Assembly: GCA_012269805.1 (NCBI GenBank) | Contig: JAAXJP010000017.1 | Coordinates: forward strand, 1-10,122 | DNA length: 10,122 nucleotides | Direction of reading: 5' to 3' | From: Rubrivirga sp. | GTDB taxonomy: Bacteria; Bacteroidota; Rhodothermia; Rhodothermales; Rubricoccaceae | Part shown: positions 1 to 10,122 of the stretch, piece after piece | How the letters are laid out: each line of letters starts with the position of its first letter | Numbering within the stretch: the first letter of the stretch is position 1 | Translations under genes and position numbers: made by a program | Notes under the pieces: model-generated | The model's input: the letters and a program-made list of their open reading frames with translations, nothing else | Databases searched by the model: none | What the model was told of the DNA's origin: nothing

Positions 1-1519
1 GTGGGGCCCGGTCGGGGCCGTCGCGCTGGGCGTGCTCGTCCCGCTCGGCTACCTCGCCGCGCGGGCGCTCTCGGCGGACCCCGCCACGCTCGCCGACCTC
101 GTGCTCCGCGCGCGGACGCTCCGGCTGGCGGGCAACACGGTCGGGCTGACGGCGGCCGTCCTCGCCTCGACGGTGTCGCTGGCGCTCCCGCTCGCGTGGC
201 TCGTGGCCCGCACCGACCTACCGGCGCGGCGGCTGGTCACCGTCCTGGGCGCGCTCCCCCTCGCGGTGCCGGGCTACGTGATGGCGTACGCGCTTCTCGC
301 CGCGACCGGCCCGGCCGGGCTGGTCGCCGAGCTGACCGGGTTCGCCGTGCCGCGGCCGGGCGGGGCGGTCGGCGCGTGGCTGGCGCTCACGCTCACGCTC
401 TTCCCGTACCTCTTCCTCGGGCTCCGGGCGGCGCTCCTCGGCCTCGACCCGTCGCTCGACGAGGCCGCGCGGACGCTCGGCGCCTCTCCGTGGCAGCGGG
501 CCCGGACCGTTGTCCTCCCGCAGCTCCGGCCGGCGCTCCTCGCGGGCGGGCTGCTCGTCGGGCTCCACGTGCTCGGCGACTTCGGCGTGGTCTCGCTGAT
601 GCGGTTCGAGACGTTCAGCTTCGCGATCTACCTCCAGTACACGGCGGCCTACGACCGGGTCTACGCGGCCGCCCTCGCGCTCCTGCTCCTCGCCCTGACG
701 GGCGCGCTCCTCTGGGGCGAGGCCCGGCTTCTCCGCGGGCGCCGGTTCGCGCGCGTCGGGGCCGGCGCCGCCCGCCGCCAGCCGGTCGTCGGGCTCGGAG
801 CCTGGCGGTGGCCGAGCGCGCTCGGCGCGGGCGCACTGGCCCTGCTCTCAGTCGGCGTGCCCGTCGGGGCGTCGCTGTTCTGGCTCGGGCGCGGCCTGGA
901 GCCCGACGTCGTGGGCGACCTCGCGACGGCGCTCGGCGACTCGGTTTCGGCCGCGCTCCCGGCCGCGCTCGTAGCCGCCGCGCTGGCGGTGCCCGTCGGC
1001 GTGCTGAGCGTGCGGAGGCCGTCGCGGCGGACGGCCCTGGCCGAGCGCGTGGCGTACCTCGGCTACGCGACGCCCCCGCTCGCCTTCGCGCTCGCGTTCG
1101 TGTTCGTCTCGATCCGCGTGCTCCCCTGGGCGTACCAGACGCTCGGGCTGCTCGTGGCGGCCTACGCGCTGCACTTTCTGGCCGAAGCGCTCGGGCCGGT
1201 CCGCACGGCGCTGTACCAGGCCTCGGCGCGGGCCGAGGAGGCCGCGCGGACGCTCGGGCGCGGCCCGCTCCGCGCCTTCGCCGAGGCGACCCTCCCCACG
1301 CTCCGGCGTGGGCTCGGCGTCTCGGTCGCCCTCGTGTTCCTCTCGGCCATCAAGGAACTGCCCATCGCGTTCCTCCTGTCACCACTCGGGTTCGAGTCGC
1401 TCGCGCTCCGGTCGTGGGCAGCGGCCGGCGAGTCGCTGTTCGCCGTCGCCGCCCCGTACGCGCTCGCCCTCGTCGCCGTCTCGACGCCGCTCGTCGCGCT
1501 CGCCCTCCGCGAGCGGTAG
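1..1519 (+). CDS. FbpB/AfuB-type iron(III) ABC transporter permease, 5'-truncated by the window edge
   Basis: This is an inner-membrane permease, probably for ferric iron, of the fused two-domain binding-protein-dependent type (COG1178-like). The frame is open from base 2 to the TAG at 1517-1519. The GTG at 32 is probably not the real start, because the hydrophobic first helix is already under way upstream of it. About 500 residues are visible, with roughly a dozen hydrophobic segments. Each half carries an EAA loop, the contact site for the ATPase: the first around nt 458-545 (EAARTLGASPWQRA, then VLPQLRPALL) and the second around nt 1235-1310 (EEAARTLGRGPLRAFAEATLP). The segment KELPIAFLLSPLGFESLALR, nt 1353-1412, closely resembles the conserved C-terminal part of FbpB-type permeases. 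Its ATPase partner lies downstream at 2282. The periplasmic iron-binding protein is not seen and would be expected upstream of the window. Iron as substrate is inferred from family and context. Confidence 0.9.
   Translation, partial: WGPVGAVALGVLVPLGYLAARALSADPATLADLVLRARTLRLAGNTVGLTAAVLASTVSLALPLAWLVARTDLPARRLVTVLGALPLAVPGYVMAYALLAATGPAGLVAELTGFAVPRPGGAVGAWLALTLTLFPYLFLGLRAALLGLDPSLDEAARTLGASPWQRARTVVLPQLRPALLAGGLLVGLHVLGDFGVVSLMRFETFSFAIYLQYTAAYDRVYAAALALLLLALTGALLWGEARLLRGRRFARVGAGAARRQPVVGLGAWRWPSALGAGALALLSVGVPVGASLFWLGRGLEPDVVGDLATALGDSVSAALPAALVAAALAVPVGVLSVRRPSRRTALAERVAYLGYATPPLAFALAFVFVSIRVLPWAYQTLGLLVAAYALHFLAEALGPVRTALYQASARAEEAARTLGRGPLRAFAEATLPTLRRGLGVSVALVFLSAIKELPIAFLLSPLGFESLALRSWAAAGESLFAVAAPYALALVAVSTPLVALALRER
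461..1257 (+). repeat. 20-nt exact direct repeat marking the two EAA loops
   Basis: The 20-mer gaggccgcgcggacgctcgg occurs at 461-480 and again at 1238-1257, both in the permease frame and both encoding EAARTLG. The copies are 777 nt (259 codons) apart, one in each half of the permease. This fits the internal duplication typical of fused FbpB/ThiP permeases. Identity at every wobble position may reflect strong codon bias at this GC content, or some conversion between halves. It is not a mobile-element repeat. Confidence 0.8.
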
Positions 1520-1566
1520 GGGCCCGCACCGTCCGGATCGTCCACCGCCCTCCCTCACCCGCTTCC

Positions 1567-2196
1567 ATGTCGCCGTCCGATCCTGTCGACCGCGCGATCC
1601 GCGAGCGCCGGACGCTCAAGATGACCGCGGCGGAGCCCGCCCCGACCGTGGGCGCGCTCTCCCGCGCGACTGTCGAGGAGGTCCTCGCCGTCGCCGGCCT
1701 CGCCCCGTTTCACAAGCCCGCACCGTCCGGGGTGCCCGAGCCGTGGCGCTGCTACGCCCACGACGCCTCGGCCTGCCGCGCGCTCCGCGAGCGCGCGCTC
1801 GCGGCCGGGGTGGGGGGGAAGGTGCCCATGATGCTCGCGGCCGCCGACGCGCTCGTGGTCGTCACGTGGGTGCCGGAGGGGGCGTCGGAGCCCGTCCCGG
1901 ACCTCCGCTTCGAACCCTCGCTGCGGAACATGGAGCTGATCGCGGCGGCCGGCGCGATGATCCAGAACGTGCTCGTCGCCGCGACGGCGCGGGGCGTCGC
2001 GTCGTACTGGTCGAGCGGGGGCTGGCTCGCGACGGCGCCCGGGCTGGCGGCTGTGGGCGTACCCTCCGGCGAACTGGTGCTGGGCGCCGTGTTCTTCTTC
2101 CCCGACGCCGTCGAGGGCGCGGCGACGCACGTCGGCAAGCAGCACGCCGTTCGGACGCCGGCCTCGTCCTGGACGCGCTGGCCCGACATCGGCTGA
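1567..2196 (+). CDS. Nitroreductase-family FMN-dependent oxidoreductase
   Basis: This is a 209-residue cytoplasmic protein with the size and layout of the nitroreductase family, which uses FMN and NAD(P)H to reduce nitro compounds, quinones, flavins or sometimes ferric chelates. Visible family features are an N-terminal basic motif for the FMN phosphate (RAIRERRTLK, residues 9-18), a central helix MIQNVLVAATARGVASYWSS (131-150) of the kind that packs at the flavin and dimer interface, and the late strand LVLGAVFFFP (170-179). The ATG at 1567 lies 47 nt after the permease stop. The leader is C-rich with no Shine-Dalgarno motif. The gene sits between the permease and ATPase genes of the same transporter, so it is probably in that operon. 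A reductase role on iron or flavin is inference, and the substrate cannot be read from sequence. A run of seven G lies at 1812-1818 inside the gene. Confidence 0.87.
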   Translation: MSPSDPVDRAIRERRTLKMTAAEPAPTVGALSRATVEEVLAVAGLAPFHKPAPSGVPEPWRCYAHDASACRALRERALAAGVGGKVPMMLAAADALVVVTWVPEGASEPVPDLRFEPSLRNMELIAAAGAMIQNVLVAATARGVASYWSSGGWLATAPGLAAVGVPSGELVLGAVFFFPDAVEGAATHVGKQHAVRTPASSWTRWPDIG

Positions 2197-2281
2197 CCCG
2201 TCCTGGCGACGTCCGAATCCTTGGGTTCCTGTCGAATCGGGGCCCAGGCCGTGCGTAACTGACCGGCCGCCCCCGCTACCC
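2197..2281 (+). other. 85-nt intergenic spacer before the ATPase gene
   Basis: This is the longest gap between genes in the window. It is less GC-rich than its surroundings around 2211-2240. It contains an imperfect palindrome at 2215-2228 (gaatccttgggttc, one G-T pair) followed by a direct repeat of cgaatc (2214-2219 and 2233-2238). I could not match a well-spaced Bacteroidota -33 TTG and -7 TAnnTTTG pair. It could hold an internal promoter or operator, or simply be a spacer. Confidence 0.3.
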
Positions 2282-3382
2282 GTGCCGCTCCTCACCGTCT
2301 CCTGCCTCTCGAAGTCGTTCTCGTCCTCTAGCGGGGCGTCGGCGCTGCCCGTCGTCAACGGGCTGTCGTTCGGGGTGGAGGAGGGGGAGCTGTTCGCGCT
2401 TCTCGGGCCGAGCGGGTGCGGCAAGACGACCACGCTCCGCTGCGTGGCGGGCCTGGAGACGCCGGACCGTGGGACCGTCACGCTCGCCGGCCGCACGCTC
2501 GACGCCGATGGTGGGCCGCGCGTCCCGCCCGAGAAACGGGGGGTCGGGCTCGTGTTTCAGGACTACGCCCTCTTCCCGCACCTCACGGTCGCGGCGCACG
2601 TCGCTTTCGGGCTCCGGCACCTCTCGCGCGTCGAGCGCCGCGACCGCGTCGCCGAGGTGGTCCGCCTCGTCGGGCTGGCGGGCTTGGAAGACCGGCTCCC
2701 CCACGCGCTCTCGGGCGGCCAGCAGCAGCGCGTCGCGCTGGCCCGGGCCGTCGCGCCGCGCCCGCGGCTGCTCCTCCTGGACGAGCCGTTCTCCAGCCTC
2801 GACGCCGGGCTCCGCCACGAGACCCGCGAACGCGTCCGCGACCTCGTCCGGTCGGAGGGGATGACGGCGCTCCTCGTCACGCACGACCAGCAGGAGGCGC
2901 TCGCCTTCGCCGACCGTGTGGCCGTCATGCAGGGCGGCCAGATCGACCAGGTCGGAACGCCGGAGGCGGTCTACCGAACGCCGCGGACCCTCTTCGTGGC
3001 CCAGTTCCTCGGGCGGACCAACCTCATGCTTGCCGAGGCCAGGGGGGAGACGGCCGAGACGCCGCTCGGGGCCCTCCCGCTTCACCGGCCCGCGTCGGGG
3101 ACCGTCATGGTCTCGCTCCGCCCCGAGGCGCTCGCGCTCACCGCCAGCGCGGAAGGCGGGGGGAGAGAAGGGACCGTCCTCTCGCGCGACTATTGGGGGC
3201 ACGACGTGACGTACCGGGTCCGGCTCCCCGGCGTCGGGCTCGGGCCCATCGAGTGCCTCGTCCACACCGACGCGCGGGCGTCGTTCGCCGTCGGCGACGT
3301 CGTCGGCGTCCGGGCCGTCGAGCCGGCCGTCGTGCTGGAGCGCGTCGGCGTCCCTGAGTCGGGTGCCGATCCTACCTTTTGA
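2282..3382 (+). CDS. FbpC/PotA-type ABC transporter ATP-binding protein
   Basis: This 366-residue cytoplasmic ATPase should power the permease encoded upstream. All ABC signatures are intact: Walker A GPSGCGKTT (42-50), Q-loop VFQDYALFPHLTV (91-103), signature LSGGQQQR (143-150), Walker B LLLLDEPFSSLD (163-174) with catalytic Glu168, and the switch histidine in VTHDQQEA (199-206). Residues from about 240 to the end form a C-terminal TOBE-like regulatory extension (SLRPEAL at 278-284, GHDVTYRVRLPG at 306-317). Such an extension is usual for the ferric iron, sulfate, spermidine and maltose importer ATPases. The start is GTG; the next in-frame Met codon is far inside the nucleotide-binding domain. 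The leader is C-rich without a Shine-Dalgarno motif. Iron specificity rests on the FbpB-like partner; polyamine or thiamine transport is less likely. Confidence 0.92.
   Translation: MPLLTVSCLSKSFSSSSGASALPVVNGLSFGVEEGELFALLGPSGCGKTTTLRCVAGLETPDRGTVTLAGRTLDADGGPRVPPEKRGVGLVFQDYALFPHLTVAAHVAFGLRHLSRVERRDRVAEVVRLVGLAGLEDRLPHALSGGQQQRVALARAVAPRPRLLLLDEPFSSLDAGLRHETRERVRDLVRSEGMTALLVTHDQQEALAFADRVAVMQGGQIDQVGTPEAVYRTPRTLFVAQFLGRTNLMLAEARGETAETPLGALPLHRPASGTVMVSLRPEALALTASAEGGGREGTVLSRDYWGHDVTYRVRLPGVGLGPIECLVHTDARASFAVGDVVGVRAVEPAVVLERVGVPESGADPTF
3373..3381 (+). promoter_or_regulatory. Possible -7-like element upstream of the DUF5916 gene
   Basis: The string taccttttg sits in a rare AT-rich pocket over the ATPase stop codon, 21 nt before the ATG at 3402. 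It resembles the Bacteroidota -7 consensus TAnnTTTG with one extra T. No clear TTG -33 element was found at the expected distance, so a separate promoter for the DUF5916 gene is only a weak possibility. Confidence 0.2.
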
Positions 3383-3401: not shown

Positions 3402-5597
3402 ATGACCGCCCGTGCCTTCCTGATCCTCGCCGCGGTCATGACCGTCCGGGCGCCGGCCGCCAGCGCCCAGACGGCCGCGCCCGTCCCGGCCCCGACCGAC
3501 CGGGCGGTCACGGCCGTCTACGCCGAGGCGCCGCCCCGCATCGACGGCCGGCTCGACGAGCCGCTCTGGGACCGCATCGCGCCGGTGACCGCGTTCCGGC
3601 AGGTGTTCCCGGAGATCGGCGCCGAGGCCACCGAGGCCACCGAGGTCCGGATCGCCTACGACCAGGACTACCTCTACTTCGCCTTCCGCAACCGCGACCG
3701 GCAGCCCGGCCTGATCCGGGCCCGCAACCTCGTCCGCGGCGGCCCCAACGCCGACGACGACCACCTCTACATCGGGCTCGACACCTACCGCGACGGCCGG
3801 AACGCCTACCTGTTCGAGATCAACGCGCTCGGCACGCAGGACGAGGCGCTCATCACCGACGAGGACCTCTCGTTCCAGAGCTTCTCGTGGGACGCCGTGT
3901 TCCGCTCGGAGACCTCGATCGACGACGGGGGGTGGTCGGCCGAGCTGGCGATCCCGTTCCGCCAGCTCCGGTTCCCCGACGGCGACGACCTCTCGTTCGG
4001 GCTCATGCTCCACCGGGGCATCCGGCACAAAAACGAGCGGGTCTCGTGGCCGGCCATCAGCCGGGAGGGGTTCGCCGCGCTCGCGCGCGTCTCCGAGTAC
4101 GGCGTGCTGCGCGGGATCCGGGGCGTCCGCCGCGGGCGGAACCTCGAGGTCAAGCCCTACGCCATCTCCGGCGCCCAGCAGGCCCGTCCCGACCTCGGCG
4201 CGCCGACCGAGGCCGCCGAGGTGACCTACGACGCCGGCCTCGACGTAAAGTGGGGCGTGACGTCCAGCCTCACGCTCGACGCGACCGTCAACACCGACTT
4301 CGCGCAGGTCGAGGCCGACGCGGCGCAGATCAACCTGACCCGGTTCAGCCTGTTTTTCCCCGAGCAGCGCGAGTTCTTCCTCGAGCGGGCGGGCCTGTTC
4401 GAGCACGGGACGGGCCGCGAGACCCAGACGTTCTTCTCGCGCCGGATCGGGCTCGACGAGTCGATCCTCGCCGGGGCCCGGCTGACCGGCCAAGTCGGGC
4501 CGCTCTCCGTCGGCCTCCTCAACATCGAGACGGGGCCGGACCTCGGCGAGATCTTCGGCGGGGCCTCGACGAACAACACCGTCGCTCGCGTCCGGGCGGA
4601 CGTCCTCCCGCGCGCGACGGTCGGCGGGATCGTGACGAACCTGGCCGACGACCTCCGGCGGAACACGGCGGTCGGCGTCGACGGCGTGGTCCGGTTCGGG
4701 CGGAACAGCGAGGTCAGCGGGTGGGCCACCCAGGTCTGGGACACGGCCGGCGAGAACAGCGCGGCGGGCCAGGTCTCGGCCCAGCTCGCGACCAACCGGG
4801 TCGGCGCCTATGGCGTGTTCTCGTCGGTCGGGCGCGCGTACGACCCCGCGCTCGGGTTCGTCCGGCGGCGGGACTACCGCCGGCTCGGCGGCGGCGCGTT
4901 CCTCAACACGCCGCTGGCGGGGACGCCGCTCCGCATCCAGCGCCTCGGGGGCGACGTCGACCTCTCGGCGTACTGGGGCCTCGACGGCGTGCTCCAGTCG
5001 TCGGAGGCCGAGGTCGAGACGTTCAGCGAACTCGTAAGCGGCGACGAGGTCGGCGTCGGCGTCCGCCACGTGTTCGAGCGTCTCGAGGCGCCGTTCACGA
5101 TCCGCGACGGCGAGACCGTCCCGGCCGACGACTACGGGTTCTGGCAGGCGTTCGCTGGGGCCGACACCGACGAAGGGCGCCCGCTGTACGGTGGCGTGGG
5201 CGTCGAGGCCGGCGGGTTCTTCTCCGGGTCCCGGGTCGAGGTCGAGGCCGGCCTGGGCTGGCGGCCGTCGCCCGGGGTCGGTCTCGAGGGCGGCGTCGAG
5301 CACTCGGTGATCGACCTCGGCGGCGGCCCGTTCGCGGCCACCGTCGGCTCGGTCTCCCTCTCGACCGCGTTCAGCCGGTCGCTCTTCGGGCGGACGCTGC
5401 TCCAGTACGACAACTTCTCCCGCCAGCTCCGCGCGAACGTCCGCCTCAACTGGATTCACACGCCGGGCAGCGACCTCTTCGTCGTGTTCGACACGGCGTA
5501 CGGCGTCGGGGAGGACGACCCGCTCGACCCGCGTCGGACCGTGCTCCTCCGCGACCGGCTGGCCGTCGTGAAGCTGACGTACCTCGTGCTGATCTAG
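3402..5597 (+). CDS. Secreted CBM9-like/DUF5916 protein, predicted outer-membrane barrel
   Basis: A 731-residue exported protein of unknown function. The ATG at 3402 gives a clean signal peptide (MTARAFLILAAVMTVRAPAASAQ, cut near residue 23). A GTG at 3363 in the same frame would overlap the ATPase gene and bury that signal, so it was not chosen. Residues about 35-225 resemble the family 9 carbohydrate-binding-like fold (PPRIDGRLDEPLWDRI at 44-59, YDQDYLYFAFRNRD at 86-99). The rest matches DUF5916: NTDFAQVEADAAQINLTRF (297-315), FFPEQREFFLERAGLFEHG (318-336), FFSRRIGL (344-351), and near the end DNFSRQLRANVRLNWIHTPG (670-689). Alternating hydrophobic strands through the C-terminal half, ending LTYLVLI, suggest a barrel. 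It begins 19 nt after the ATPase stop, so cotranscription is likely. Any role in iron uptake is only by association; sugar binding is not shown. Confidence 0.88.
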   Translation: MTARAFLILAAVMTVRAPAASAQTAAPVPAPTDRAVTAVYAEAPPRIDGRLDEPLWDRIAPVTAFRQVFPEIGAEATEATEVRIAYDQDYLYFAFRNRDRQPGLIRARNLVRGGPNADDDHLYIGLDTYRDGRNAYLFEINALGTQDEALITDEDLSFQSFSWDAVFRSETSIDDGGWSAELAIPFRQLRFPDGDDLSFGLMLHRGIRHKNERVSWPAISREGFAALARVSEYGVLRGIRGVRRGRNLEVKPYAISGAQQARPDLGAPTEAAEVTYDAGLDVKWGVTSSLTLDATVNTDFAQVEADAAQINLTRFSLFFPEQREFFLERAGLFEHGTGRETQTFFSRRIGLDESILAGARLTGQVGPLSVGLLNIETGPDLGEIFGGASTNNTVARVRADVLPRATVGGIVTNLADDLRRNTAVGVDGVVRFGRNSEVSGWATQVWDTAGENSAAGQVSAQLATNRVGAYGVFSSVGRAYDPALGFVRRRDYRRLGGGAFLNTPLAGTPLRIQRLGGDVDLSAYWGLDGVLQSSEAEVETFSELVSGDEVGVGVRHVFERLEAPFTIRDGETVPADDYGFWQAFAGADTDEGRPLYGGVGVEAGGFFSGSRVEVEAGLGWRPSPGVGLEGGVEHSVIDLGGGPFAATVGSVSLSTAFSRSLFGRTLLQYDNFSRQLRANVRLNWIHTPGSDLFVVFDTAYGVGEDDPLDPRRTVLLRDRLAVVKLTYLVLI
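3624..3647 (+). repeat. Tandem 9-nt coding microrepeat
   Basis: The unit gaggccacc occurs twice in tandem (3624-3632, 3633-3641) and is followed by a partial third copy gaggtc. In frame it encodes EATEATEV, residues 75-82 of the DUF5916 protein, within its CBM9-like domain. It looks like a small replication-slippage expansion that keeps the frame. Confidence 0.75.
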
Positions 5598-5626: not shown

Positions 5627-8248
5627 CTAGAACTCGGCCCGGATCCCGATGAGGACGGTCCGGGGGAGGCCGGGGCGGAGGCCGGCCGGGCGGCGCGACG
5701 CCACGTAGCGGGCGTCGAGCAGGTTGCGGACGGCGAGGACGGTATGCACCCCCTCGCCGCGGAGCTCGTCGAGATCGAGAAAGGGGACCGGCGTCTCGGC
5801 CGCGAGGTCGACGACGAGCCGGGCGTCGACGCGCTGGCTCTCGGGGATCGGCCCCTGGCCGGCGCGGTCGCGCGTGGCGGCCGCGTACGCCGCGCGGAGG
5901 TCGAGCCGCGACCGGTCGGTCTCGACGCCGACGCCGAGCGCGAGCGTGTGGGGCGCCACGTACGGCAGCCGGTCGCCCTCGCGGACGACGCCCCACGGGA
6001 GGAACGCGCTCGTAAAGCTCTCCTCGAACCGGGCGTCGGTGAAGGTGTACGCCAGCCGGACCGGGACGCGGACGCGCCGGCCCACCCACATGCCGTCGAC
6101 CGAGGCCTCGGCGCCGAGGACGCGCGCGGCCCCGCCGTTGAAGAGGTCGCCCGTGCCCGTCCCGCCCGACGAGGCGAAGTCGGCCCCGAGGAGGTTGTCG
6201 TAGTCGGTCAGGAACGCGACGGCCTGCCCGGCGAGCGAGCGACCGCGGCGGTCGTTCGTGCGGAGGCGGAGGCCGAGTTCGCCGTTCAGGCTCCGCTCGG
6301 CCTCGACGCCGGGCTCGCTCGACGGCGGCGCGAACCCGCGGTGGAGCCCCGCGAACACGAGCGCCGGTCCCACGCCGAACCGCGCGGCGAGGCCCGGGAT
6401 GAGCGCCGTCACCGTATTGTCGCGCGTTTCCGGAGCCCCGGCCCGGTCGGGGTCGGCTGTCCCGTAGTCCTCGCGCCGCTGGCGGACGTGCTCGACGCGC
6501 ACGCCGGGCGTGAGCGTGAGGTACCCCGCCGGCGTCCCGATCCCGACCTCGCCCTCGGCGAAGGCCGCCACCGCCTGCGCGCGGTCGACCCGGTTGCCCC
6601 GGTCGCCCGGCGCCCCGAGCTCCACGATCCGGAGCGGCGACTCGTCGAACAGCCACCCCGCGTCGAGAGCTTCCGTGTTGAGGCGGTAGGTGTAGCCGCG
6701 CTGCATCCGGTCGGCGCGGTCCTGGTGGAGCCGGAGGCCGACGCGGACCGACGACTGCTCGGGCACGATCGGGACGCCGACGGTGAGGTCCAGGCCCTCG
6801 GCCCCGAACCGCCGGTCGTTGGAGACGACGGTCAGCGTCGCGTCGGCGAGCCGGGGGTCGGCCGTGCCGCGCGCGACCGCGAGCTCGTCGGCAAAGAGGA
6901 CGGGGTCGTCGACGAACCGGTTGATCGGGACGTCGAGGTCAGCGTCGTTGAGGCCGTCGCCGTCGGTGTCGAGGTCGTCGCCGAGGCCGTCGGAAATGGC
7001 GTCGAGGCGGCGCCAGTCGCGCCGGAACCGGGTCGCGTAGGCCGTCGCCGTGATCGTCACGCCGTCGCCGACGTAGCCGACGTAGCGGAGGTGGCCGAGC
7101 CCGTGCTCGCTCTCGAACGCGTCGGCGGCAGTCGAGACGTAGCGGGCCGTCGGGTCGGCCTCGAAGTCGGCGGGGGCGAGGCCGAGGTAGGTCTCGTCGG
7201 AGGTCTGGCCGTCGGCGGTCAGCTTGAGCTCGACGCTGTGGAACGACTGGTCGGGCGCCATCCACTGGAGGCGCGCGCGGCCGTGGGCGCTCCACAGGTC
7301 GTACCCGGTCGGGCCGTCGAGCCGCGTCCCGGCGGCGCCGGCGGCCGGGAAGCGCGTGAGGTGCTTGAACCCGTCGGTCCCGTCCCAGAGCCCCTCGGCG
7401 AGCACGTCGAGCGTCGCCTCGCCGACCCCGACCCCGCCGCGCCCGAGCCGCACGAGCGCCGTCCGCGCCCGGTCCGTTCCGCCGCGCACGTCGACACGGG
7501 CGAGCGTGCCGGCCGACGGGGGCTCGAACGAGACGAAGTTGACGGCGCCGCCCGTCGTGTACGGCCCGTAGGCGATCTGGGCCGACCCCTTCCGCACCTC
7601 GAGCGCGTCCATCCGCGCGACCGGTGGGGCGTAGTAGGCCGCGGGCGCGGCGTACGGCGCGGGCGCGATGAGGACGCCGTCCTCCATGAGCGTGATGCCC
7701 GACGACCGGTCCGAGATCGTCCCTCGGATGCCGATGTTCGGGCGGAGCCCGTACCCCTCCTCCTCCTGCACCGTCACCCCGGGCACCTCGGCGAGCACGC
7801 GGAGCACGTCGGTGTCGGCGAACCGCTCCAGCGCCTCGCCCTCGAGGACCGTCGCCGCGCCCGGCACCTCGACGACGCCGCGCGAGCCGCCCGCCAGTCG
7901 CGCGGCCGACACGACGGCGACCTCGCCGAGCGACTCGATCGACGGCCCGATGGCGAGGTCGAGCCGGAGCGTGTCGCCCGCGACGAGCGTCGCCGTCTGC
8001 CGCACCGGGCGGTACCCGACCGCCGAGACGACGAGCGTGGCTGGGCCGGCCGGGAGCCCGCCGATCTGGTACCGGCCGTCGGCGTCGGCCGCGGCCCCGC
8101 GTCGGATCTCCTCGACGAGGACGGTGGCGCCGGGCAGCCCGCCGCCACTCTCGGCATCGGTGATGCGGCCCACCAGCGCGGCGGTCTGCGCACTAGCGGA
8201 GGCCGTGGACAGAAGGGCCGCTACCGCGGCGAAGAGAACTCGCGACAT
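5627..8248 (-). CDS. FecA-like TonB-dependent outer-membrane receptor
   Basis: An 873-residue outer-membrane active transporter driven by TonB/ExbBD. In order it has a signal peptide (1-20, ending TASASA before QT), a carboxypeptidase-regulatory-like domain (about 22-100: LVGRITDAESGGGLPGATV at 25-43, GRYQIGGLPAG at 58-68), a TonB-box-like strand (GEVAVVS, 108-114), the plug (about 125-240) and a long barrel ending in the C-terminal Phe of VLIGIRAEF. The plug segments GYGLRPNIGIRG (165-176), GITLMEDGVLIAPAPYA (184-200) and AYGPYTTGGAVNFVS (226-240) resemble FecA, the ferric dicitrate receptor, so a ferric chelate is the likely cargo. The exact ligand is unknown. The ATG overlaps the HTTM stop by one base (TGATG), which indicates translational coupling. 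The stop lies 29 nt from the convergent DUF5916 stop. A DxDxDG loop occurs at residues 427-439. Confidence 0.93.
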   Translation of the reverse strand: MSRVLFAAVAALLSTASASAQTAALVGRITDAESGGGLPGATVLVEEIRRGAAADADGRYQIGGLPAGPATLVVSAVGYRPVRQTATLVAGDTLRLDLAIGPSIESLGEVAVVSAARLAGGSRGVVEVPGAATVLEGEALERFADTDVLRVLAEVPGVTVQEEEGYGLRPNIGIRGTISDRSSGITLMEDGVLIAPAPYAAPAAYYAPPVARMDALEVRKGSAQIAYGPYTTGGAVNFVSFEPPSAGTLARVDVRGGTDRARTALVRLGRGGVGVGEATLDVLAEGLWDGTDGFKHLTRFPAAGAAGTRLDGPTGYDLWSAHGRARLQWMAPDQSFHSVELKLTADGQTSDETYLGLAPADFEADPTARYVSTAADAFESEHGLGHLRYVGYVGDGVTITATAYATRFRRDWRRLDAISDGLGDDLDTDGDGLNDADLDVPINRFVDDPVLFADELAVARGTADPRLADATLTVVSNDRRFGAEGLDLTVGVPIVPEQSSVRVGLRLHQDRADRMQRGYTYRLNTEALDAGWLFDESPLRIVELGAPGDRGNRVDRAQAVAAFAEGEVGIGTPAGYLTLTPGVRVEHVRQRREDYGTADPDRAGAPETRDNTVTALIPGLAARFGVGPALVFAGLHRGFAPPSSEPGVEAERSLNGELGLRLRTNDRRGRSLAGQAVAFLTDYDNLLGADFASSGGTGTGDLFNGGAARVLGAEASVDGMWVGRRVRVPVRLAYTFTDARFEESFTSAFLPWGVVREGDRLPYVAPHTLALGVGVETDRSRLDLRAAYAAATRDRAGQGPIPESQRVDARLVVDLAAETPVPFLDLDELRGEGVHTVLAVRNLLDARYVASRRPAGLRPGLPRTVLIGIRAEF

Positions 8249-9702
8249 CAGGGAATCGGGGGCGGGTCACGGAGAACCCACGGCTTGGGGCCGAGCCCGC
8301 GGGGCGCGGCAGTGAGGTCGACCGCGGGGTCGACGAGCGGGGCCCCGGGGCGGCCGTTCACGCTCACGTACGTCTCGGCGCGGACCTCGACGTCGGCGTA
8401 GCCCGCGGCCTGGAACCGGCGCTCTAGGTACTGGGCGTACTGCCAGAGCAGGTCGGGCTGGAACGCCATCTGCTTTTCTTGCAGCGGCGTGAGGTCGGCG
8501 CTCGGGGCGACCGTCCACGTTCGCCCGCTGGCGGGGTCGGTCACGAGGAACTCGGCGGTCCCGGTCTTCTCGGCCACCATGACGTGCCAGGCGAACCGGA
8601 AGCCCTCCTCGGTCCAGAGCCGGTCCCCAGGGTAGAGCCAGTGCCGCAGCGGGAGCGCGAGCTGGACGAGGAGCAGCGCGCCGGCGACGCCCGCCGCCCA
8701 CCGCGCCGGCCGCGCCGCGGGCCGGGCCGCCTCACCGAGGCGGGGGGACCGACCGAGCAGCGCCCGCCACTCGTCGGCCTCGAAAAAGACGAGCGCGGCC
8801 GCCACCATCACGAACGGGAAGACGCCGATGTTGAACAAGGCGTACGTCGCCGCGTGGAACGCGACGGCCGCCGCGTACGCCCATGGCCGCCAGCGACGGA
8901 CCGAGAGGAGGAACGGGGCCATGAGGTCGAAGAGGGCCCCTCCCCACGCGAAGGCCCACGGCATCCACTCGAGGTCGAGGATCGGCCCGACGACCGGGAG
9001 CCCGCCGCGCGCCGGCAGCCAGATCCGGAGCGGCATCGCCGCGATCAACCAGTCGGCGTTGAGCTTGGCAACCCCGGCGAAGACGTAGACGAGGCCGACC
9101 TGGAGCCGGAGGGCCCCGACCGTCCACGCCGGCACCGAGGCGCGGTCGGCCCGGCCGGGCACGAGCGCGGCGCCCATCGGCAGCGCCAACATCAGCACGC
9201 CGACGGCGCTCACGAAGTAGTAGTGGTTGAGGTACGTCGCCGCGTCGATCAGCTCGACGTAGGTGAACGCGACGACGAACACGGCCAGCCACCCCCGTGC
9301 GGCGCGGCCCCACGCGAAGGCCAGCGCCGAGCCCGCCGTGACCAGGAGGGCCGCATTCAACGCCCACAGCGGGAGCGGCCGGACCCACCCGAAGCCGGGG
9401 TACGAGAAGTGGACAGGCGGGTCGGCGTAGAGGGGACCGGCCCAGCCGAGGAGCAGGAACCGGACGGCGCTCGCCGCCATCACGACCCCGAACCCGACGC
9501 GGAACACGCCGAGCACGACCGGGTCCGTCGGCACCGTCAGCCGATGGCGGAGGCGATCGGCCAAGCCGCGAGCGCCCCGTGGACGACGGTCGCCGGCGCG
9601 CAGAGGGGGGGGCGAGCGCCGCGCCCCGCTCGGCGGCGGCCGCTCGGCCGTTGCTCCGGGTGTGAGGTCTCCTGTACCCGGTCCCTCGTACCCCGTGCTC
9701 AC
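8248..9702 (-). CDS. HTTM protein, vitamin K-dependent gamma-carboxylase-like membrane protein
   Basis: A 484-residue inner-membrane protein with about eight or nine hydrophobic segments (roughly residues 61-355) followed by a soluble C-terminal domain. The motif FAGVAKLNADWL (208-219) parallels the active-site segment of animal gamma-glutamyl carboxylase; Lys213 falls where the catalytic base (human Lys218) lies. YLNHYY (157-162) parallels the region of human His160, and FHAATYALFNIGVFPFVM (282-299) another conserved stretch. The tail keeps EGFRFAWHVMVAEK (366-379) and VSVNGRPGAPLVDPAVDL (446-463), which also resemble the animal enzyme. These alignments are from memory. The start is GTG, 1 nt after the imelysin stop, and the stop overlaps the receptor ATG. 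Residues 1-55 are Pro/Arg/Gly-rich and encoded over a C8 tract, so the exact N-terminus is uncertain. In such enzymes reduced vitamin K drives Glu carboxylation; bacterial activity and substrate are unknown. Confidence 0.9.
   Translation of the reverse strand: MSTGYEGPGTGDLTPGATAERPPPSGARRSPPPLRAGDRRPRGARGLADRLRHRLTVPTDPVVLGVFRVGFGVVMAASAVRFLLLGWAGPLYADPPVHFSYPGFGWVRPLPLWALNAALLVTAGSALAFAWGRAARGWLAVFVVAFTYVELIDAATYLNHYYFVSAVGVLMLALPMGAALVPGRADRASVPAWTVGALRLQVGLVYVFAGVAKLNADWLIAAMPLRIWLPARGGLPVVGPILDLEWMPWAFAWGGALFDLMAPFLLSVRRWRPWAYAAAVAFHAATYALFNIGVFPFVMVAAALVFFEADEWRALLGRSPRLGEAARPAARPARWAAGVAGALLLVQLALPLRHWLYPGDRLWTEEGFRFAWHVMVAEKTGTAEFLVTDPASGRTWTVAPSADLTPLQEKQMAFQPDLLWQYAQYLERRFQAAGYADVEVRAETYVSVNGRPGAPLVDPAVDLTAAPRGLGPKPWVLRDPPPIP
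9605..9612 (-). repeat. C8 homopolymer tract early in the HTTM gene
   Basis: Eight G on the plus strand read as eight C in the HTTM gene, across codons 31-33 (Pro-Pro-Pro), ahead of the first membrane segment near residue 61. It lies at a point where a one-base slip would destroy the frame from the annotated GTG. It is the longest homopolymer I noticed in the window. Confidence 0.7.
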
Positions 9703-9703
9703 C

Positions 9704-10122
9704 CTAGTCCCCGTCGTTGTCGCTGAACGTGATGCTCACGCCGAGCCAGTTGGCGAGGTCCGTTTTGATCAAGCGGAGAAGCGTGCCGGTCTCGGCGTAG
9801 AGCGCCTCGGCCTGCGGCGACCGGTCGGCGACGGCCTGCTGATATCCGTCGCCCAGCGCGGCCGCGGCCCGGTCGGTCGCGTCGATCTGGGCGAGGAGCG
9901 CCGCGCCGAGCGGCTGCCCGTCGATCTCGGCGCCGAGTGTCGCGAGGTAGTCGTCGAGGCCGGTCCCACCGCCGCCGGTGACGAGCGCGCGGAGCCCGAC
10001 GAGGTCCTCCCGGAACAGCGCCATCGACGCGCCCGCGTACGGCGACTCGACGAGCGAGGGGTCGGGAGCGCCGGCGGCGTCCGTGGCGCTCCGCGCGATC
10101 CCGAGCGGCCGGCCGCCCTTCA
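9704..10122 (-). CDS. Imelysin-family iron-regulated protein, C-terminal part only
   Basis: The last 138 residues of an imelysin (peptidase M75-like, ICMP/EfeO-related) protein are visible; the gene enters from beyond the window. The Met codon at 10024 is internal, because the frame stays open upstream and continues with family sequence: KGGRPLGIARS near the edge, then SLVESPYAGASMALFREDL, which corresponds to the conserved ESPYSG..S...L region of imelysins. The C-terminus TDLANWLGVSITFSDNDGD is the usual family ending. Imelysins are exported, helical, iron-regulated proteins found beside iron transporters, some of which bind iron; they are not proven proteases. The N-terminal metal-binding GxHxxE-type motif and signal or lipoprotein peptide would lie outside the window, so function here cannot be tested. 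It is the first visible gene of the tight imelysin-HTTM-receptor operon, with 1 nt before the HTTM start. Confidence 0.9.
   Translation of the reverse strand, partial: KGGRPLGIARSATDAAGAPDPSLVESPYAGASMALFREDLVGLRALVTGGGGTGLDDYLATLGAEIDGQPLGAALLAQIDATDRAAAALGDGYQQAVADRSPQAEALYAETGTLLRLIKTDLANWLGVSITFSDNDGD

Follow-up and report, generated by a model that had tools for sequence, protein, structure and literature searches.

The animal vitamin K carboxylase that activates clotting proteins, GGCX, carboxylates Glu. For its bacterial homologues, to which the VKG of Leptospira is said to belong in the same way as the protein described here, we know of no established role. A glutamyl carboxylase homologue of Leptospira is mentioned in PMC4555120. 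Human GGCX contains an HTTM core and a lumenal domain, and its substrate is a propeptide-bearing Gla protein. As its active site is described in PMC12589487, K218 is the base, N159, H160 and Y395 contact the Glu side chain, and the Gla backbone is held by N158 and R436. In the same source M401 belongs both to the quinone pocket and to the wall separating the two pockets, N290 lies in the isoprenyl tunnel and K217 is linked to substrate binding (PMC12589487).

Two described imelysin systems are also relevant. Imelysins with the motif GxPxx[D/E] form the IPPA family (PMC3143127), and the IPPA/PA4372 family is found in DUF1513 operons. Leptospira has an iron-responsive gene group of the order LruB imelysin, DHOR, imelysin, and all three are induced when iron is limiting (PMC13066512).

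The locus considered here lies in a window of 10,122 nucleotides from a Rubrivirga sp. contig, the window being the whole stretch of DNA that was analysed. A gene at 8248..9702 on the reverse strand, with a GTG start whose position is uncertain, encodes a VKGC-type protein of 484 amino acids. An HTTM domain and a VKGC lumenal domain sit on a single chain, and human GGCX is its top match both by sequence and by structure, which bears out the GGCX-like fold proposed in a sequence-only reading of the same DNA. The protein is thus a bacterial relative of the animal enzyme. Lys213 (codon 9064..9066, reverse strand) aligns with the catalytic K218 of human GGCX, and His160 (codon 9223..9225, reverse strand) with human H160, preceded in both proteins by Asn at 159; the proposal that Lys213 and His160 are conserved catalytic residues holds, the two being identical in all 107 aligned rows described below. 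The likeness proposed for the C-terminal, lumenal-type domain stands. The structural match stops at human residue 512, which corresponds to the window protein's own C-terminus, and in the structural comparison human 513-758, comprising the complete propeptide-binding and arch domains, has no counterpart. Unlike human GGCX, the window protein also lacks the C99/C450 pair, has L158 and Q411 where the human enzyme has the Gla-backbone residues N158 and R436, and F368 in place of Y395, the third contact to the Glu side chain. Human N290 and M401 are replaced by Thr and Val, and K217 by Ala.

The imelysin partner and its acidic tail

Whereas the human enzyme acts on a Gla protein, the protein paired with the window enzyme is a bacterial lipoprotein. 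The C-terminal part of an imelysin-type protein is encoded at 9704..10120 on the reverse strand, truncated at the window end, which appears to be the end of the contig as well. The fragment matches PF09375 (Peptidase_M75) with 32.1 bits against a cut-off of 23.5. The region that would carry the diagnostic motif lies beyond the contig end, and in a sister locus (L002) it reads GLPALEYL; most tailed imelysins have GxPxx[D/E] instead of GxHxxE. Judged by this motif, the carboxylase partner is predicted to be an IPPA-type imelysin lipoprotein.

The earlier suggestion of a recurrent neighbourhood with imelysin and TonB receptor genes is confirmed by a scan of genome contigs. Among the best 80 of 108 loci, 75 have an imelysin gene immediately upstream in the same orientation, 72 a TonB receptor gene, 63 a DUF4856-type gene and 26 a DHOR gene. 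Within the neighbourhood the imelysin is the constant partner. Of the five loci without a directly linked imelysin, three (L035, L056 and L078) have no upstream sequence, L058 has the order imelysin, receptor, carboxylase, and the Myxococcales locus L077 has the order carboxylase, imelysin, receptor, its imelysin being recognised by Pfam with 107.3 bits.

The pairing is also seen at the level of genomes. In 395 Bacteroidota genomes, PF22777 (the VKGC lumenal domain) gives 96 matches in 82 genomes, and 75 matches to the imelysin query, spread over 71 genomes, extend to the final residue of that query. All 71 carry PF22777, as against 82 of 395 overall, and they span 36 genera by label. For 69 of the 75 imelysins, PF22777 follows on the same strand at a distance of no more than 3 kb; the other six have no carboxylase gene next to them, although one is present in each of their genomes. 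Four of these six (L148-L151) are tailed imelysins within imelysin-DHOR-imelysin clusters. Seen from the carboxylase side, 26 of the 96 PF22777 matches lack an imelysin match at that distance and orientation upstream. In 201 genomes of Chloroflexota, the phylum of L036 (an Anaerolineales bacterium), an imelysin match occurs in eight and extends to the last residue in seven, once in two pieces. The same seven genomes carry PF22777, and in six of them the two genes are convergent, on opposite strands, so that the pairing is not just a frozen operon. The Fisher p values of 4e-67 (Bacteroidota) and 4e-13 (Chloroflexota) ignore kinship and are descriptive only. One imelysin query missed the divergent L077 imelysin, and tailed imelysins in enzyme-free genomes may therefore have been missed too.

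The window imelysin ends in F-S-D-N-D-G-D (9707..9727, reverse strand), a conserved acidic tail whose commonest form is F/Y-x-D-x-D-G-D. In the first locus set, every one of the 75 directly linked imelysins terminates in DGD-COOH, compared with none of the 25 canonical GxHxxE imelysins of those loci; the L058 imelysin, the last of the 101, has the DGD end, as do all 30 from loci fetched as best matches (L118-L147). Across 74 linked genes the codons for Asp (GAT/GAC), Gly (four codons) and the stop (three) vary, so that selection must act at the amino-acid level. The chain in the IPPA crystal structure 3pf0 likewise terminates in DGD, and residues 384-389 of its 389 are reported as disordered (PMC3143127). 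A free terminal DGD is not required, since six of the seven Chloroflexota imelysins extend the tail to DGDSMR or DGDSTR and the Myxococcales protein ends in TDND. The additional S-M-R or S-T-R (L193-L197 and L200) looks as if the tail could be trimmed.

The same tail occurs beside another protein. Four alphaproteobacterial plasmid loci (L188-L191), opened out of 20 matches, all contain an IPPA-type imelysin ending in LDGD, preceded by a DHOR or c-type cytochrome gene and followed by DUF1513, and no HTTM gene is annotated within these four stretches. They share the tailed imelysin type with the window locus but have DUF1513 in place of the carboxylase. Among 79 genomes with both a tailed imelysin and VKGC, DUF1513 is above cut-off in none, with seven partial matches below it. 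The position next to the tailed imelysin thus seems to be filled by either VKGC or DUF1513, in an apparent non-homologous replacement. The tail is therefore either older than the carboxylase or independent of it, unless DUF1513 serves the same purpose. Psychrobacter-type imelysins likewise end in LDGD in all 120 matches listed (of 1258), but at 90-94% identity to the query these count as one case. DHOR is not a necessary partner of the tail, being found in 25 of 71 tailed-imelysin genomes and giving no match in 46.

The earlier link to iron is supported by genes of Riemerella anatipestifer. The neighbouring tags RAYM_09779 (TonB receptor), 09784 ('Vitamin K-dependent gamma-carboxylase'), 09789 (imelysin lipoprotein) and 09794 (hypothetical) all appear in a table of putatively Fur-regulated genes, and their expression in the wild type is higher under iron restriction, with -Fe/+Fe ratios of 2.11 to 3.07 (PMC5609570). 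Another strain of this species (L053) has the order imelysin-carboxylase-receptor. Taken together, the carboxylase clade and the IPPA-type imelysin very probably form one functional unit in iron-regulated operons.

Active-site residues and clade structure

Residues of human GGCX were compared with those of the window protein, 82 class I rows and 25 class II rows. Class I comprises 78 proteins from the first locus set together with L117, L157, L178 and L179; L157, L178 and L179 have no adjacent imelysin, and the contigs of L035, L056 and L078, also included, start at or just before the carboxylase gene. Class II comprises 22 proteins from Bacteroidota genomes and three from plasmids. N159, H160, K218, W223, F286 and F299 are invariant in 82 of 82 and 25 of 25 rows, respectively, and G259 is kept in 106 of the 107. 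The window protein shares N159, H160, K218, W223, F286, F294 and F299 with the human enzyme. Other positions have changed throughout class I: N158, N290 and M401 have become L, T and V in all 82 rows, R436 is replaced in all (by Q in 81) and so is K217 (by Ala in 78), whilst the Y395 position has Y in 42 and F in 39. In view of the invariant N159, H160, K218 and their companions on the one hand and the replaced N158, R436 and K217 on the other, the core chemistry of class I looks conserved and the substrate side altered. The L, T and V at N158, N290 and M401 would be expected were the substrate something other than a Gla domain. The seven Chloroflexota rows, of which L201 duplicates the class I row L036, all have this L, T and V, with R at the R436 position in six and Q in one.

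In a tree of 54 rows, the class I and Chloroflexota rows, 28 in all, form one supported group (100/99), with human GGCX as a long branch outside it. Since the class I enzymes are one clade, the 71 paired genomes do not represent independent events.

Class II has the same catalytic residues as the window clade but differs from it in retaining N290 and M401 as in the human enzyme in 25 of 25 rows, and in being mostly adjacent to ribF. N158 is kept in 17 of the 25, and all have His at the Y395 position. The one class II protein scanned (L154) has the same two Pfam domains as the window protein. The class II loci have no imelysin alongside, and no substrate candidate was seen. In Bacteroidota (L154-L170) these genes adjoin ribF, encoding FAD synthetase/riboflavin kinase, as identified by Pfam on four loci and by similar starts in 15; at L154 a seryl-tRNA synthetase gene also adjoins. 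A plasmid of Paracoccus albus (L114) carries a VKGC homologue near a DUF393 gene, with no imelysin annotated within the stretch.

Possible chemistry and competing explanations

The usual adjacency to an imelysin with an acidic tail makes this imelysin the first place to seek the target of the enzyme. The reading that we tentatively prefer, whilst rating it somewhat short of probable, is that of a menaquinol-dependent periplasmic carboxylase dedicated to the IPPA-type imelysin, encoded in an iron-regulated operon, with the acidic tail as entry point. The chances seem evenly balanced that the enzyme performs quinol-dependent chemistry on the imelysin at all; that this chemistry is carboxylation is possible but somewhat doubtful, and that the tail is the target is rather unlikely. 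Fold, catalytic residues, clade, pairing and conservation of the tail are computational results, and regulation by iron and Fur is published for one relative; quinol use, carboxylation, the residue modified and metal binding we infer.

In such a mechanism the membrane core would bind menaquinol, Lys213 (human K218) would deprotonate it and O2 would convert the deprotonated menaquinol into a strong base. An acidic residue of the imelysin, for which the flexible C-terminus is the likeliest entry point, would be drawn past Asn159 and His160 into a periplasm-facing pocket, where the strong base could remove a proton. CO2 would then be added at the deprotonated residue, leaving menaquinone epoxide and a tail with one or more extra carboxylates, which would make it a stronger ligand for hard metals. 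Several points count against carboxylation of the tail. It offers Asp, while carboxylation by the known enzyme is of Glu, and the window protein does not retain Y395, K217 or R436. The tail also occurs beside DUF1513 in all four opened plasmid loci, and six Chloroflexota imelysins continue for three residues beyond it. A bolder version, which we consider distinctly improbable, holds that a menaquinol-dependent carboxylase builds an iron ligand into an imelysin at the surface or in the periplasm by converting Asp of its acidic C-terminal tail to beta-carboxyaspartate, that the receptor of the operon works with this iron carrier and that in Pseudomonadota the unrelated DUF1513 carries out a corresponding step on the same tail. 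A C-terminal beta-carboxyaspartate would carry three carboxylates, similar to citrate, and if this were true the use of the chemistry in blood clotting would be a late branch of an older chemistry of metal handling.

Gla modification, which the sequence-only reading had put forward, keeps the support of the fold, the catalytic Lys and His, the recurrent neighbourhood and the link to iron, and is narrowed to the imelysin. What is weakened is the expectation of Glu carboxylation: a column comparison of tailed imelysins with 10 relatives found no VKGC-specific Glu, N158 is replaced and VKOR is not enriched. In its classical form this reading would place gamma-carboxylation of Glu at other sites, whether in the core of the imelysin, the TonB receptor or DUF4856, with the tail merely docking or unrelated, and we regard it as unlikely. 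The Glu-side residues N159 and H160 are invariant, and candidate positions in the imelysin core are E225 and E255 (L002 numbering): the first is Glu in all 89 tailed imelysins compared, the second in 87. E225 is, however, also Glu in eight of 10 sampled relatives from DUF1513 operons and Psychrobacter, and E255 in four of 10; moreover, the imelysin alignment columns contain no Glu-rich stretch, some VKGC-imelysin loci lack DUF4856, and Y395 is only partly kept. A comparably low probability attaches to a quinol epoxidase or oxidase that does not carboxylate and instead couples menaquinol and O2 to an iron-related redox step or to signalling on the imelysin. The base and much of the quinone pocket are indeed kept (K218, W223, F286 and F299 in 107 of 107 rows, G259 in 106), and the Leptospira VKGC homologue reportedly does not carboxylate. 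Yet H160 and N159 on the Glu side are just as invariant (107 of 107), although a pure epoxidase would have no obvious use for them. VKOR homologues, furthermore, occur in 18 of 82 VKGC carriers as against 92 of 395 Bacteroidota genomes overall (p 0.88), and have no match in the window's own genome, which is 81% complete.

Non-catalytic explanations are less probable. The carboxylase fold may have been reused for assembly or anchoring, serving the imelysin tail as receptor or chaperone, with DUF1513 as a non-catalytic counterpart in Pseudomonadota. The presence of DUF1513 in the slot beside the tailed imelysin in all four opened plasmid loci, and its absence above cut-off from the 79 genomes with tailed imelysin and VKGC, fit this, and an HTTM protein of unclear mechanism is described in a linaridin cluster (PMC9927463). 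That the catalytic residues are strictly conserved throughout the clade nevertheless argues for chemistry, and we consider the idea quite doubtful. Least credible is a frozen operon, co-transcribed for iron regulation and lacking any direct biochemical link, even though joint putative Fur regulation is reported in one species (Riemerella anatipestifer, PMC5609570) and the class I enzymes are one clade. The convergent genes of Chloroflexota (six of seven genomes), the reversed order on the L077 contig, the receptor placed between imelysin and carboxylase at L058 and the co-presence of the pair in genomes even where they are non-adjacent all speak against it.

The observations that are new here are the imelysin pairing, the DGD tail in the linked imelysins, the L/T/V changes in the pocket and the presence of DUF1513 beside the same tail. 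The pairing points to a definite protein partner and to a single short conserved peptide in an iron-regulated setting, and thereby reduces the question of whether bacteria make Gla-like residues to a test on a single lipoprotein. The IPPA imelysins and DUF1513 would also gain a candidate function.

The receptor and other neighbouring genes

Downstream of the carboxylase, at 5627..8248 on the reverse strand, lies a gene for a TonB-dependent receptor with a CarboxypepD_reg-like N-terminus, a plug and a barrel, whose start overlaps the carboxylase stop. The description of this receptor as FecA-like is apt for the plug but not for the remainder, as the FecA match in the PDB is confined to residues 123-244. 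With only 64.6 bits against the NCBIfam FecA equivalog cut-off of 1100, it does not qualify as a FecA ferric-dicitrate receptor.

Two members of the DUF4856 type differ greatly in their Pfam scores, with 506 bits at L009 and 19.9 bits, below cut-off, at L072. The model of the L009 protein (L009:7437-8735; pLDDT 88.5) has no confident fold match and at most a weak, doubtful similarity to imelysin. On the forward strand of the window, 2-3382 encodes an ABC permease, cut at the window start, and an ATPase; their listed NCBIfam matches, to phosphonate, sulfate, iron and related types, are all below cut-off. Between the two lies a nitroreductase-family protein (1567-2196; 31.2 bits). A CBM9-like/DUF5916 protein is encoded at 3408-5597, also on the forward strand and convergent with the TonB receptor gene.
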